Origin: Thermacetogenium phaeum DSM 12270
GTDB taxonomy: Bacteria > Bacillota > DSM-12270 > Thermacetogeniales > Thermacetogeniaceae
Assembly: GCF_000305935.1 (NCBI RefSeq)
Contig: NC_018870.1
Location: 265,942-329,941 of the forward strand
Direction: 5' to 3'
DNA length: 64,000 nucleotides
Below are positions 49,253 through 54,735 of the stretch, one piece after another (position 1 is the stretch's first letter; every line of letters starts with the position of its first letter). Under the pieces are notes generated by a model, which made no database searches, had not been told where the DNA came from, and worked only from the letters and a program-made list of their open reading frames with translations. A program made the position numbers and the translations under genes.

Positions 49253-49288
49253 TTGTGAGTGAGAAGTTATCCATGGAGGCTCAAAAGT

Positions 49289-49567
49289 ATGCCTTATATT
49301 GCTACCGTATCACAAAAAGGGTGGGTGGTCATACCGAAGGAACTCCGCGCCAAACTCAAGATCCGCCCGGGAAGCAAGGTCCTCCTCGTGGAAGGGGAGG
49401 AGGGCCTGGTGATCACACCTCTCCCCGAGGACCCGATTGCTGCTTTCAGGGGAATGCTCAAGGGTTTTCCCTTGGTGGAAGAGTTGCTGGAGGCCAGGAA
49501 GGAGGAAGCTGCCCGTGAAGAGCTACGTGCTGGACAGCTACGCGGTGCTGGCGTACTTCCAGGATGA
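49289..49567 (+). CDS. vapB: AbrB/MazE-family antitoxin, copy B
   Basis: 92 residues from ATG 49289; ATVSQKGWVVIPKELRAKLK and GSKVLLVEGEEGLVITPLPE define the AbrB fold. Nearly identical to the 34189-34467 antitoxin. It overlaps its toxin by 53 bases. Confidence 0.87.
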   Translation: MPYIATVSQKGWVVIPKELRAKLKIRPGSKVLLVEGEEGLVITPLPEDPIAAFRGMLKGFPLVEELLEARKEEAAREELRAGQLRGAGVLPG

Positions 49568-49934
49568 AGAAGGAGCAGCCCAGGTGGAGGGACTGCTCCG
49601 GGAAGCCGCTGCAGGGAAAGCATCCCTGATCCTGTCCGCCGTCAACCTTGGGGAGGTCGCCTACGTTACCCAGCGGAAGGCCGGGGCGGGAGGCAGGCGC
49701 AAACTTCTGTCTGCGCTGGATGCCCTTCCGGTTACGGTTGTAGACGCCGACCGGGGCCTTGCCCTCGCAGCGGCGGAGATCAAGGCAAAACACGCCGTTT
49801 CTTACGCCGACTGCTTCGCGCTCGCCCTGGCCCGGCGCAGCGGGGGAACTGTGGTAACGGGTGACCCCGAGTTTAAAAAGGCGGAGGGGGTCGCACCGGT
49901 TCACTGGCTCCCGGAAAAACCCAAACAGCGCTAA
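49515..49934 (+). CDS. vapC: VapC-type PIN toxin, copy B
   Basis: 139 residues from GTG 49515 (GGAGGAAG upstream). PIN motifs VLDSYAVLAYF, SAVNLGEVAYV, VSYADCFALALA and TVVTGDPEF are intact. About 92% identical to copy A (34415-34834); cross-talk between the two antitoxins is likely. Confidence 0.9.
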   Translation: MKSYVLDSYAVLAYFQDEEGAAQVEGLLREAAAGKASLILSAVNLGEVAYVTQRKAGAGGRRKLLSALDALPVTVVDADRGLALAAAEIKAKHAVSYADCFALALARRSGGTVVTGDPEFKKAEGVAPVHWLPEKPKQR

Positions 49935-50434
49935 CCCCCCAATTGATTTACTTTTATCCCAACGGTTCCCGCAGCTCCAGGGGGATGGAACAACCCGGCC
50001 GCAGGCAATAGCAAGGGGGTTGCCGCCAGATTCCTTCATTCGAGGATGTCCTCTACAAGGTGCACACCATCCGGAAGGCGTTTGGCTGTTTCGAGAGCAC
50101 CGACATCGGGATCTACGACACCTGCTGCCACCAGGTATCCTACCCCACTACCTCAAGCTCCTATCCGCTGAATTGTGGGCATAATTCAAGATCCGAAAAA
50201 TTTCCGTGAATCAGCGCAAAAGGTAGGGGCTTCCGCTCCTCCTGCAGTTGCGCAGGATGTGATTTTTGCTGTGGGGCAGCCCTTTCCGGTCCGGCGCATT
50301 ACTTATAACCGAGACCGTCTGTTGCGCAAAGGCTCCGGGCGCCGTTCCCGCACCAGGACGGCCACCCGGGCCGGGCGATATGTGCTCAGTGATCAGGAGC
50401 TTAAAAACTATTGTGCGAGGAGGAGGAAGGGTGT
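49935..50434 (+). other. Stretch of unrelated gene fragments
   Basis: Bases 50037-50160 translate to DVLYKVHTIRKAFGCFESTD and GIYDTCCHQV, a coding-like fragment of unknown family. Bases 50253-50393 give DVIFAVGQPFPVRRITYNRD and GSGRRSRTRTATRAGRYV, which resembles the linker before the VWA domain of Mg-chelatase subunit D (ChlD/BchD)-type proteins. Neither has a start or full domain. Confidence 0.4.
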
Positions 50435-52072
50435 TTGTATAAAGAAAGGGTTTCGAAATCATCAGATGAACTGGAACAACTAATTGAAGAATTTCGAAAT
50501 TTTGCTTTTTCCGGTATGGTTGGATTTTACAATTCCTGTTCTATTACAAGCATTATCCTTTCGTCACAGAAGTATGGATGGCATAAAAATGTTTTTACTA
50601 TTGTCGTTTTTGAAGAATTACCTTTTCGTGATTATCGCCGAAAATATCATACAAAGCATCCGGTCAAGATTACAAACGACTTGAGATTGTCTGTTGTATC
50701 ACAACGAGCAATGGTTGCAGATGCGGTTAGACTGTATGAAGATGCTTGCAGAAAAGGAAGATGGCAACAGCCCGGCTGTCCTGAATTGCAAATTGCCGAA
50801 TGCAATATACTGAGTAAGCATTTTGTTCCCTCATCATCTGATGTTCCCCTTAACAGCATTCTGAAAAATCCTCACCGTTACCCCAGTTATGTTTTTGAAC
50901 TTTTTTGTGAAAAAAAGGAATTCTATAAGAAATTAAATCCTGAATATGCTTTAGGAAAGATATCGCCTGCTGTAAAAAAACTATACCAAGCAGTCAATGA
51001 CTGTATACCAATCGACCTGGAGTATATAAGTGACCGTTGGGAAAATATTATCTTTCAGTTTCCTGTGAACTTGTTAAAAATAGAGGCACGCGGCGAAAAA
51101 GATGGTGAGCATATAAATGTATCGCTACGCTGGCATCCTCTAGTTGTGAATGAACGGCGAGTTGTTAATATTCAGTTGGATTCAAAGCATGATAAGATCA
51201 TCCTGGGTTGCTGCAACACGACTGTATCTGAATCTTCTGCAAGATTAAGAGTAGGAACAACCCAGGGAGAGATGTCTATCCAAGTGATGAGCAGAGATAA
51301 TAATATTATCTTATACCAGAAAGCATTTCACTTGATTAATTTAATTGGGGTGTCTCTCCGTAATTTGAATCATGAAAAGGTGACAATTAATGTTCCTCCC
51401 CGTGGTAAACGGCAGCCCGCATTCACTTATACAATTCAGCCGGTTTCTATAGAACATATGTCAAGTGGTAAAATCCCAGAGTGGCGTGAATGGGTTAATA
51501 AAAGATCAAATCTGGCTTCGAAAAGAGAACTGGAAAGACGTCTGGAGTTCGTGCAATATGGTGTGGGAGGAGCCCAGGATTGGGAAAGGGCACTTCGAGA
51601 TATACATCAACTGATCAAATGGCACGGCGAAAATGGGGTTTACCTCTGGGATCCTTTCGCTGATGGCAGGGATATTATTTCAACAATATTTGCGTGTGAG
51701 ATCAATGATGCCCCTCTCAAAGTGATAACATCATTTAACAAATTTGTCAGGAAAATTGCCGTAAGAAATGGTATTGAAATTTGCAATTGCGAGGATTGGA
51801 TGCGTCATTTAAAAGGATTTTTATCAAAAGCTGTACAGCAAAGAAAAGTTAATCTGGAAGTCCGCTGTCAGCATGGCTGCCGGGGATGGAAATTTCATGA
51901 TAGATTTTTGATCTTTCCCGGTCTTGAACCAAAGGTATGGTCACTGGGCTGTTCGATAAATGCTCTCGGCCAATCACATAGCATTTTGATGAAAGTGGAG
52001 CATGCTCAGCCTGTGCTGGATGCTTTTGAACTTCTTTGGGAGGAACTCGATCAGTGCGTCATATGGCCTTAG
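50435..52072 (+). CDS. Unknown protein with C-terminal PLD-like HDR motif (first gene of a two-gene operon)
   Basis: 545 residues from TTG 50435 (AGGAGG at 50421-50426). The first 380 residues are not recognised: helical at the start, then beta-rich (about 210-350). The C-terminal 160 residues look like a single phospholipase-D-type domain: HGENGVYLWDPFADGRDIIS, then WKFHDRFLIF and SLGCSINALGQSHSILMKVE. HDR-FLI plus GxSxNxxG is a variant of the HxK motif seen in PLD-like proteins of defence loci. There is no signal peptide or membrane helix. AT-rich DNA unlike its flanks, and the downstream gene overlaps by 19 bases, so the two proteins probably act together. Confidence 0.65.
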   Translation: MYKERVSKSSDELEQLIEEFRNFAFSGMVGFYNSCSITSIILSSQKYGWHKNVFTIVVFEELPFRDYRRKYHTKHPVKITNDLRLSVVSQRAMVADAVRLYEDACRKGRWQQPGCPELQIAECNILSKHFVPSSSDVPLNSILKNPHRYPSYVFELFCEKKEFYKKLNPEYALGKISPAVKKLYQAVNDCIPIDLEYISDRWENIIFQFPVNLLKIEARGEKDGEHINVSLRWHPLVVNERRVVNIQLDSKHDKIILGCCNTTVSESSARLRVGTTQGEMSIQVMSRDNNIILYQKAFHLINLIGVSLRNLNHEKVTINVPPRGKRQPAFTYTIQPVSIEHMSSGKIPEWREWVNKRSNLASKRELERRLEFVQYGVGGAQDWERALRDIHQLIKWHGENGVYLWDPFADGRDIISTIFACEINDAPLKVITSFNKFVRKIAVRNGIEICNCEDWMRHLKGFLSKAVQQRKVNLEVRCQHGCRGWKFHDRFLIFPGLEPKVWSLGCSINALGQSHSILMKVEHAQPVLDAFELLWEELDQCVIWP

Positions 52073-53682
52073 AAAAATTATTTCTCAAGCGGAAAAAAAC
52101 AATTGATATATACCGGGGTAGAACTTTTAGGCAGATGCTGGCTGAATTGGAAGCTTTGCTTCGAGATTATACAGCCTGGGAGAATTATGAACAAGATTAT
52201 AAAAATCTTGTGGAAGAAAAAGCAGAAATGCTCTCAAAAGTGTTAATGGGAGAAATTGTAGAACGGGATGAGTTTTTGAGTGAGGAAGCCTTATGGAATG
52301 AAAGGGGGTGGCAGTTGAAGCTGGTAGTAGGTGGCCTGCTGCATTTCGCGAGGAAGCAAACAAAAGAAATTTTACTTCAATTTGCTGCTCTCTACAACCT
52401 GCTGGAAATGCCTGTTGTTATACTGCGCGTGATCATAGAAACCTGTCCGGATATCACAAAAAACATCAAAGATGCTATATCTGAGTGCTTGCATACAAAT
52501 TACTTTTTTGATTGCAAGCTTTCTCTAAGAGAATCTAGCAGGGGTACATGGGAAGAGCATGTTCTGCGTGAGTATGAAGAAGGAATAAAAGATGGTAATA
52601 TTTCAAAAGTTACTAGTTTTATGCAAAGATGGCATGCCGGCCACCTGGATTATTTAGAAGGCCCTTATGCAGTGGTGTTAGCTCTTGTTTATTACTGTGA
52701 TAAAGATCTTTTTGCCAAAATGGTGGCAGCAACTGAAACTCCAGTTTTTGTTTGTTTGGTATGTGAAGATCCTGAATACGCTTATGATCTCGTAACACTC
52801 TGGAAAATTGCCGAGAATGGTGGCATATGGGCAAGGATGGAAGTGTTTTATCATCTTAGTAAACTTTTGCTTGGTTGCAGGATGTGTGTGGATGGACGTG
52901 AAAAAATTGAGGAACGGGCTTTCAGGAGAATGATTACTGTCTATATGGGAAGGACAATTGTTCTCCTGCTGGATACAAAAAAAGCTGGGGTTTTGCGCTA
53001 TTTACTGGATGCCATGCCGGGACTCGATCTAAGAAGATCGGAGATTCGTTATTTATTATTTTTTCTTGGACAGTATCTGGGCAAAGGAATCTCCCAAAAT
53101 CTGTCTGGAGAATTTATTGAGCAAGAGTTTAATCTATGGAATCCACCGCACTTTGATCCGGGAGTCATGTTTTTATTGTACGGCATTCAGAGAGCTTTGG
53201 AAAAAGATAATTCATCGTTGCTCGAAGCGCTGAATAAAGCAGTATTAAAGAAATGGTTGGAAATCTTGTGTAAATCATATAATTGCACAGATGAGGTGGA
53301 TAGTTATAACTTTTTACCTTTTACTAGTTTAGATTTATCTGTATTTTACGCATTGTCGAAAAGATGGCAGACCAGGCGAAGATCGGTCCAATTTCTCAAG
53401 GGCCTATGCCGTCGATTACAACTGACAGATGGAATGTGGTTTAAAAGTCCTATGGCAGAAGAACAGCGCAGAAAAGCACTTTACGCTGGAATTCGTGCGC
53501 ATGCCAAAGCATGGTCGATGCTACCCCCGGATGATTCTATATCTGAAATATCTTATTCTTTGAAATTTCTTCAAAAATACTTTATGGATCAACGCAATTG
53601 GGAGAGAATGCCTGGGGATGCCGGTGAATCCAATAAAATGTCTGATATATTTATGGAGATCCTAAAATCTTACCAAAATTAG
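52054..53682 (+). CDS. Unknown all-helical protein (second gene of the operon)
   Basis: 542 residues from GTG 52054, with GGGAGGAA at 52038-52045; ATG 52063 is an alternative. Predicted almost entirely alpha-helical, with possible HEAT/TPR-like packing and no recognised motif (LHFARKQTKEILLQFAALYN, MITVYMGRTIVLLLDTKKAG). No membrane segment is evident. Translation is coupled to the PLD-like gene by overlap. It could be the sensor or scaffold partner of a nuclease; this is inference from gene order only. Confidence 0.6.
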   Translation: MRHMALEKLFLKRKKTIDIYRGRTFRQMLAELEALLRDYTAWENYEQDYKNLVEEKAEMLSKVLMGEIVERDEFLSEEALWNERGWQLKLVVGGLLHFARKQTKEILLQFAALYNLLEMPVVILRVIIETCPDITKNIKDAISECLHTNYFFDCKLSLRESSRGTWEEHVLREYEEGIKDGNISKVTSFMQRWHAGHLDYLEGPYAVVLALVYYCDKDLFAKMVAATETPVFVCLVCEDPEYAYDLVTLWKIAENGGIWARMEVFYHLSKLLLGCRMCVDGREKIEERAFRRMITVYMGRTIVLLLDTKKAGVLRYLLDAMPGLDLRRSEIRYLLFFLGQYLGKGISQNLSGEFIEQEFNLWNPPHFDPGVMFLLYGIQRALEKDNSSLLEALNKAVLKKWLEILCKSYNCTDEVDSYNFLPFTSLDLSVFYALSKRWQTRRRSVQFLKGLCRRLQLTDGMWFKSPMAEEQRRKALYAGIRAHAKAWSMLPPDDSISEISYSLKFLQKYFMDQRNWERMPGDAGESNKMSDIFMEILKSYQN

Positions 53683-53975: not shown

Positions 53976-54443
53976 TCAACTCTCGGCCTTGCTCGTTAAA
54001 AACAGAGAGGGTTTCCTCTCCGGCAGCACTTTGATATCTACGGCGCGCAAGGCCTCCCACAACCTGTCGTCAAAGCAGCCCGCCGCTATTCTTTTCTTCA
54101 CCTGCGTCTTCAAAGTCACTGCAGAAGCAAGGTGAATGGCGTCAAAACCTCTGAGACAGTATTTTTCGGCCAGTTCTCCGGCGAGGAAGACGAGAGAATC
54201 CGTGACTTCTATCACGAGACATTTCGGCCAGTCGTTTTGAAGAGCCGCCACAACCTGGCGGTAATCCTTTTCCTCTATATAGCCATCCATGAAGCCCCTT
54301 GCGAGAGCAGCGCGGGCTTCTGCATAGGCAACTTTGCTGGTGACCACCACGGAGGCTTCGTCAACCAACTTATGAACCATCTCCGAGCCCTGTTCCTGGA
54401 CGTAGAGTTTCACCAAAGCGCTGGTATCAAGGTAGCAGATCAA
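53976..54443 (-). CDS. vapC: PIN-domain toxin
   Basis: 155 residues from ATG 54443, overlapping the antitoxin stop (ATGA). MICYLDTSALVKLYVQEQGS, VVTSKVAYAEARAALARG and LRGFDAIHLASAVTLK carry the PIN acids. An intact toxin of the Phd-linked VapC group with a slightly extended C-terminal tail. Confidence 0.9.
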   Translation of the reverse strand: MICYLDTSALVKLYVQEQGSEMVHKLVDEASVVVTSKVAYAEARAALARGFMDGYIEEKDYRQVVAALQNDWPKCLVIEVTDSLVFLAGELAEKYCLRGFDAIHLASAVTLKTQVKKRIAAGCFDDRLWEALRAVDIKVLPERKPSLFLTSKAES

Positions 54444-54706
54444 CGGCGATCCTTCACCACCAATGCCGCAATTGATTTATTGCCGCTAATAACCGGCGGC
54501 GTCGCTATTCCCTGGGGCTTTCCGCCACGCCAGGACGCCATTCCCTGTTCTACCATGGTTAAAACAGAAACCTGCTCCTCTCCCTGAGTCGGAACCAGCT
54601 TTGCAATAGGTACGTTGCGTTCCGTTATGAGCAGTATTTCTCCCTTTTTGACGCGTCTGAGGTATTCGCTAAAGCGGTTCTTAACCTCTCTTATACCCGC
54701 CTTCAT
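54440..54706 (-). CDS. Phd/YefM-family antitoxin
   Basis: 88 residues from ATG 54706 (GGAGGTGG eight bases upstream). MKAGIREVKNRFSEYLRRVK and EILLITERNVPIAKLVPTQG are the Phd/YefM fold. The rest is the flexible toxin-binding part. Overlaps the PIN gene by four bases. Confidence 0.9.
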   Translation of the reverse strand: MKAGIREVKNRFSEYLRRVKKGEILLITERNVPIAKLVPTQGEEQVSVLTMVEQGMASWRGGKPQGIATPPVISGNKSIAALVVKDRR

Positions 54707-54735
54707 AAAACCACCTCCTGTAGCCACATTCTAGC

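Follow-up and report, generated by a model that had tools for sequence, protein, structure and literature searches.

The window analysed here, a 64,000-nucleotide stretch of the Thermacetogenium phaeum DSM 12270 chromosome (NC_018870.1), contains a pair of overlapping genes that stand out from their surroundings by base composition (GC 41-42% in the operon versus 50-60% in the flanks) and that lie between two toxin-antitoxin modules. An earlier note, made from the letters alone, had described two AT-rich genes of 545 and 542 residues with a 19-base overlap set between such modules, a description with which the open reading frames, start codons, GC content and family matches listed here agree, save that the PIN identity of the second toxin is a judgement by eye.

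49259..49934, plus strand: flanking toxin-antitoxin module outside the cassette, an AbrB-type antitoxin (TIGR01439, 42.8 bits, cut-off 28.3) with a VapC-like PIN toxin (VapC30, E 6.6e-4)
about 50418..50430, plus strand: AGGAGGAGGAAG, resembling a ribosome-binding site, upstream of gene 1, as read in the sequence
50435..52072, plus strand: gene 1, 545 aa from TTG 50435; the frame is open from TTG 50411 (553 aa from the first TTG)
52054..53682, plus strand: gene 2, 542 aa from GTG 52054; the frame is open from TTG 52036 (548 aa from the first TTG)
53976..54727, minus strand: flanking toxin-antitoxin module outside the cassette, a Phd-type antitoxin (TIGR01552, 35.3 bits, cut-off 20.8) with a PIN-like toxin assigned by inspection only, for which no PDB match was found

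For gene 1, TTG 50435 is a better start than TTG 50411 because the ribosome-binding-site-like AGGAGGAGGAAG precedes it, and for gene 2 GTG 52054 is preferable to TTG 52036 because it aligns with the ATG starts of homologues (MxxMExx); with these starts the genes overlap by 19 nt. Both are truly coding, since they are conserved over many phyla and dN is well below dS for each of them in most close pairs of adequate divergence. Neither direct nor inverted repeats were found bracketing the operon, and a promoter search there gave nothing above chance. The intergenic stretch upstream of gene 1, as far as the PIN gene (49935-50410, about 475 bp), holds an apparent gene fragment (...VHTIRKAFGCFESTDIGIYDTCCHQ...), perhaps a relic.

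Family, fold and motifs of the two proteins

Gene 1 matches the NCBIfam model NF040700 (VPA1262_N_dom) at 309.1 bits, against a cut-off of 80, with residues 79-545 aligned to positions 6-478 of the 478 in the model. The pair had earlier been called unrecognised, which this match overturns for gene 1 and which stands for gene 2, where no family was matched. No match to gene 1 was found in Pfam, and its matches to PADLOC 2.0.0 profiles were insignificant (best E 0.011). An AlphaFold (AF2) model of the protein, with a pLDDT of 90.2, and an alignment of 72 homologues delimit the following parts.

About residues 10-200: N-terminal alpha/beta domain in the AF2 model
About residues 205-300: Ig/FN3-like beta-sandwich in the AF2 model, matched to FN3 domains by Foldseek
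About residues 350-545: after a linker, a C-terminal PLD-like domain, from the AF2 model and Foldseek
51647..51658, plus strand: WDP[YF] motif (W405-D406-P407-F408) in a strand of the PLD domain, with W, D and P identical in 72/72 aligned homologues
51893..51907, plus strand: FHDRF motif at residues 487-491, where the PLD domain has its variant of the HxK site, identical in 72/72, an invariance that is partly by construction, one retrieval pattern having contained FHDRF
51947..51961, plus strand: GxSxN motif (G505, S507, N509), the counterpart of GSxxN, with G, S and N identical in 72/72

Structural comparison of the PLD-like domain by Foldseek returned TrmBL2, NucT, FAM83 and Zucchini. The best match overall for gene 1 was TrmBL2, a chromatin protein of archaea that binds DNA and has a PLD-like domain not known to be catalytic; the closest nuclease was NucT of Helicobacter pylori (6ehi; E 1.2e-4, probability 1.00, TM 0.58 by target). 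Among viral models the matches were mainly weak and of the beta-sandwich kind. The C-terminus of gene 1 is thus modelled with a PLD fold, and the reading of WKFHDRFLIF...SLGCSIN as a variant PLD nuclease-like motif, proposed in the earlier note, is borne out by the presence of the motif and by the resemblance of the model to NucT, Zucchini and FAM83. Nuc-type PLD enzymes carry the motif HxKx4Dx6GSxxN, from which the site in gene 1 (H-D-R-F-L-I-F-P ... L-G-x-S-x-N) departs in that Lys is replaced by Arg, GxSxN takes the place of GSxxN, and the position of the Asp is occupied by Pro in 70/72 homologues. FHDRF is also kept in the stand-alone gene-1 homologues reached by tblastn or by the family profile without the FHDRF pattern.

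At a few near-invariant positions (within 51041-52000) the protein of the window itself deviates, having E203 where 71/72 homologues have Gly, S516 where 65 have His, and M519 where 68 have Gln; S516 and M519 also occur in its nearest relative, L020. Unrelated proteins, too, gave weak matches to the PLD-like C-terminal part of NF040700 (L013:1501-1863, which is ORF6N-domain-like by eye, L011 and L014), and from these sequences the HDR-type PLD domain seems common to several kinds of protein.

The product of gene 2 is modelled (pLDDT 81) with 26 helices and no strand, in keeping with its earlier description as all-helical, and its predicted architecture is that of an alpha solenoid. It had no match in NCBIfam or PADLOC, matched a single Pfam family far below the cut-off of that family, and found no close PDB relative in Foldseek (best E 0.02); searches of the PDB and of plasmids with the single sequence returned nothing. 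Across homologues the protein is about 480-550 aa long and consistently evolves faster than its partner, with a median identity of 15% versus 31% for gene 1. Clear homology of both genes to a metabolic family had been named beforehand as an outcome that would speak against a defence role, and neither gene matched any such family.

Pairing, transfer and neighbourhood of the genes

A first scan of the genome collection, with the single gene-1 protein as query, found nothing, but the gene-1 alignment, run against 84,980 genomes, yielded 98 relatives, 80 of which were kept. Their hosts belong to the Bacillota, Bacteroidota, Pseudomonadota, Campylobacterota, Acidobacteriota, Chloroflexota, Spirochaetota, Fibrobacterota, Melainabacteria and Methanobacteriota (Methanobrevibacter). 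When the candidates for gene 2 from the genome scan, plasmids and phylum hits were compared (n=82), 79 of the open reading frames directly downstream of gene 1 formed one homology family; the three exceptions were a transposase that has been inserted in Bradyrhizobium, a partner that has diverged (L023) and, in one Methanobrevibacter, a frame without homology (L070). The two genes overlap, gene 2 starting inside gene 1, in 75 of 83 cases, and lie within 15 nt of each other in 80 of 83. Over 64 pairs their identity matrices correlate with r = 0.91, where permutations reached at most 0.12. A profile of gene 2 matches 27 of the 29 genomes with a stand-alone gene 1 and is single-copy in those 27, bar one genome with two copies of the locus. 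Within the phylum, where gene 1 exceeds the cut-off in only 10 of 398 genomes, a sporadic distribution, the profile matched three of the 398, all three of which also have a stand-alone gene 1 (hypergeometric p about 1e-6). Co-occurrence of the pair, proposed earlier as a check, is therefore upheld in both directions, and genes 1 and 2 are a conserved genetic unit.

Some individual loci are worth recording. On the Bradyrhizobium plasmid (L029:10651-11715) it is an IS630 transposase gene that separates the two genes, with the true partner downstream of it, and in Methanobrevibacter (L070:9568-11076) the downstream frame, at 502 aa, is of similar length to gene 2 without being homologous to it. 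Chitinophaga arvensicola (L052) carries gene 1 alone: no gene 2 follows it or lies anywhere else in the genome, and the downstream frame has a P-loop motif instead. In Rhizobium sp. R634 a 17.6 kb region bearing the operon occurs twice on one contig, 100% identical and about 280 kb apart (L087 and L088), through either recent duplication or an assembly artefact.

Three comparisons of genomes speak directly to the mobility of the pair. Aureimonas and Aurantimonas have in common a stretch of 3,492 bp (99.4% identical), a Vibrio halioticoli plasmid and the chromosome of another Vibrio one of 3,558 bp (98.3%), and two clostridia one of 3,270 bp (95.6%), in each case consisting of exactly the gene pair and its leader, with flanks that show no nucleotide match between the genomes. 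The pair therefore moves as a cassette and, because the transferred stretches hold exactly both genes, the functional unit is most likely these two genes alone. A third conserved gene was considered and rejected, for upstream neighbours, although co-oriented in 62 of 75 cases, are largely unrelated to one another, and the transferred cassettes comprise two genes only. Copies sit on chromosomes and plasmids and, in small number, on viral contigs (five in IMG/VR, and one fragment labelled phage), with no constant third partner. Neither gene was found in 14 other genomes of the family to which the host of the window belongs; the nearest relative, with 55% identity in gene 1, comes from another family of the same phylum. 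That relative (L020:6382-8229) directly follows genes for a three-Cys-motif partner protein (TcmP) and for a protein with a weak match to radical SAM mobile pair protein A. The unit is small (3.3 kb) and, as the transfers of the exact cassette attest, self-contained, and it ranges from Methanobrevibacter to Pseudomonas.

The neighbourhood of the operon was compared with that of other loci by means of 139 proteins encoded within 6 kb of 20 homologous operons and 130 from distant stretches of the same genomes, the controls covering 16 of the 20 genomes and proteins longer than 1,100 aa being excluded from both sets. At E <= 1e-40, 35 PADLOC models were matched near the operons, including a CBASS set, Lamassu LmuA/LmuB, Hachiman HamA, AbiEi/AbiEii, SIR2, PDC-M62 and PDC-S05, versus four in the control stretches (a type II restriction-modification (RM) pair, mad3 and GlgB). 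Because one protein can match several models, and with 25 of the 35 models among those listed, these amount to 12 to 16 distinct proteins versus at most four (Fisher p 0.007-0.05 depending on counting). Reverse transcriptases (RTs) among the neighbours, which at first resembled defence RTs, were left out of the stricter enrichment test because a group II intron maturase domain is present in three of the four. Among individual copies, the one on a Rhizobium etli plasmid adjoins CBASS, one on an Agrobacterium plasmid has AbiEii, an RT and two restriction endonucleases alongside, and one on an Aliarcobacter plasmid an RM specificity subunit and an RT. Homologues of the operon thus do lie near defence genes more often than same-genome controls, as a check suggested in the earlier note had anticipated, and the enrichment is real but moderate, because many of the flanking genes are housekeeping ones.

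Possible functions of the pair

Because the unit travels together across many bacterial phyla and some archaea, and often beside genes for defence against viruses, the pair is probably an anti-phage system, a reading already put forward in the earlier note and supported here. Stated more fully, we infer, with a probability of roughly 0.58, that the operon forms a self-contained cassette of two proteins, exchanged horizontally and serving in defence against phages or other mobile DNA, with a PLD-nuclease effector and its partner. Protein 1 is proposed as the effector because it is the conserved partner and carries a putative active site; it would be a nuclease whose domain with the variant site (H-D-R ... 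GxSxN) is preceded by an N-terminal domain peculiar to the family and by one of Ig/FN3-like type. Protein 2, the fast-evolving alpha solenoid, is proposed as the sensor because fast change is expected of the part that meets the phage; it would bind protein 1, recognise or be displaced by an infection signal, and thereby control the nuclease as a sensor-regulator.

The main alternative, which we regard as improbable, is that the PLD-like domain is catalytically dead and serves as a nucleic-acid-binding or dimerisation module, so that the pair would act as a DNA- or RNA-binding regulator or impose a non-cutting block on phage replication. In the HKD motif, the exchange of Lys for Arg and the missing Asp favour it, as do the top Foldseek match to DNA-binding TrmBL2 and the match to the pseudo-PLD FAM83. 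However, the H, R, G, S and N residues never vary among the aligned homologues, including those found without the motif pattern, which suits an active site better than a relic, and a Lys-to-Arg variant of the HKD motif was judged likely active in BrxL-HKD (PMC12839542). Less probable again would be a toxin-antitoxin or addiction module for the stability of islands and plasmids, with protein 1 as a toxic nuclease and protein 2 as its neutraliser, as might be suggested by the tight translational coupling, the mobility of the cassette, the plasmid copies and the adjoining toxin-antitoxin modules; yet protein 2 is far above the usual size of an antitoxin, the nuclease gene comes first, and at least one gene 1, that of Chitinophaga, lacks a gene 2, which is difficult to square with a partner that must always neutralise it, unless the Chitinophaga copy is inactive.

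It is very unlikely, in our estimate, that the pair serves its mobile element in conjugation, transposition or competition between elements, with the defence genes merely co-resident in the same islands. Cassette-like transfer fits such a role, as does the presence, at some loci, of insertion sequences, integrases and group II introns among the neighbours, but the common unit is two genes with no recombinase among them, found on replicons as different as chromosomes, plasmids and viral contigs with no third partner held constant. An ordinary metabolic or housekeeping operon, for which we found no support, is scarcely credible given the sporadic occurrence within the phylum, the horizontal transfer and the absence of any match to a metabolic family.

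Relation to known families and systems

The family of gene 1 takes its name from VPA1262, a gene of the Vibrio parahaemolyticus island VPaI-6, which was described without a role for VPA1262 (PMC1464126); in the literature we found nothing on the function of the family and met VPA1262 only as a gene of that island. Gene 1 fits NF040700 end to end, the C-terminal PLD motif being part of the model, but the model comes without a function and is silent on a partner gene. Longer proteins, single chains of about 1,000-1,100 aa, contain the NF040700 domain too, and four of them score above the cut-off of NF040699, the single-chain VPA1262 family, which has the same N-terminal domain with FHDRF and is present in the same phylum (L015-L018). 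The window protein scores 18.3 bits against the NF040699 cut-off of 325 (about 1,026 positions), over positions 403-528 only, and falls outside that family. Gene 2 was considered as a split-off C-terminal half of long VPA1262, with which its length would agree; hhalign with a profile of five long proteins gave a probability of 0.1%, equal to shuffled controls, and gene 2 is therefore not demonstrably such a half. By its sequence the window is thus assigned to a two-gene class of NF040700-domain proteins, as opposed to the long single-chain class. It is about an even chance that the two-gene class is a widespread immune system whose variant PLD nuclease is under the control of an alpha solenoid from a new family, and that long VPA1262 is a second, single-chain class with a different regulatory half.

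With the single-HKD PLD nucleases (Nuc, NucT, Zucchini) gene 1 shares the fold, one motif per chain, and the positions of the H and of GxSxN, but it differs from them in having HxR for HxK, no Asp, extra Ig/FN3-like and N-terminal domains, and a near-constant helical partner. Among PADLOC 2.0.0 components of known anti-phage systems no match was found, homologues reaching only weakly to the candidate PDC-S05, the profile of which aligns weakly with the PLD-like C-terminus in the window protein and with 17/72 gene-1 homologues (best E 5e-6); the match covers a short C-terminal stretch only, and PDC-S05, a protein of which also lies in the flank of one gene-1 homologue, is a single-gene candidate without gene 2. 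Type II toxin-antitoxin modules consist of a small toxin and a small antitoxin, whereas both proteins here are of about 540 aa. BrxL-HKD and other HKD-DNase defence effectors have the Lys-to-Arg variant in common with gene 1, but BrxL-HKD has another architecture, with ATPase and BREX partners, and the likeness is at the level of the PLD fold.

The pair provides leads to the function of two families, of which the first owes its name solely to a Vibrio island gene and the second has no model. If the pair is a true defence system, it adds to those known one built on a PLD nuclease whose active site is unusual and whose helical partner is new: the fold of the effector and the family name of gene 1 are known, and what is new is the partner, a helical protein with no family model.
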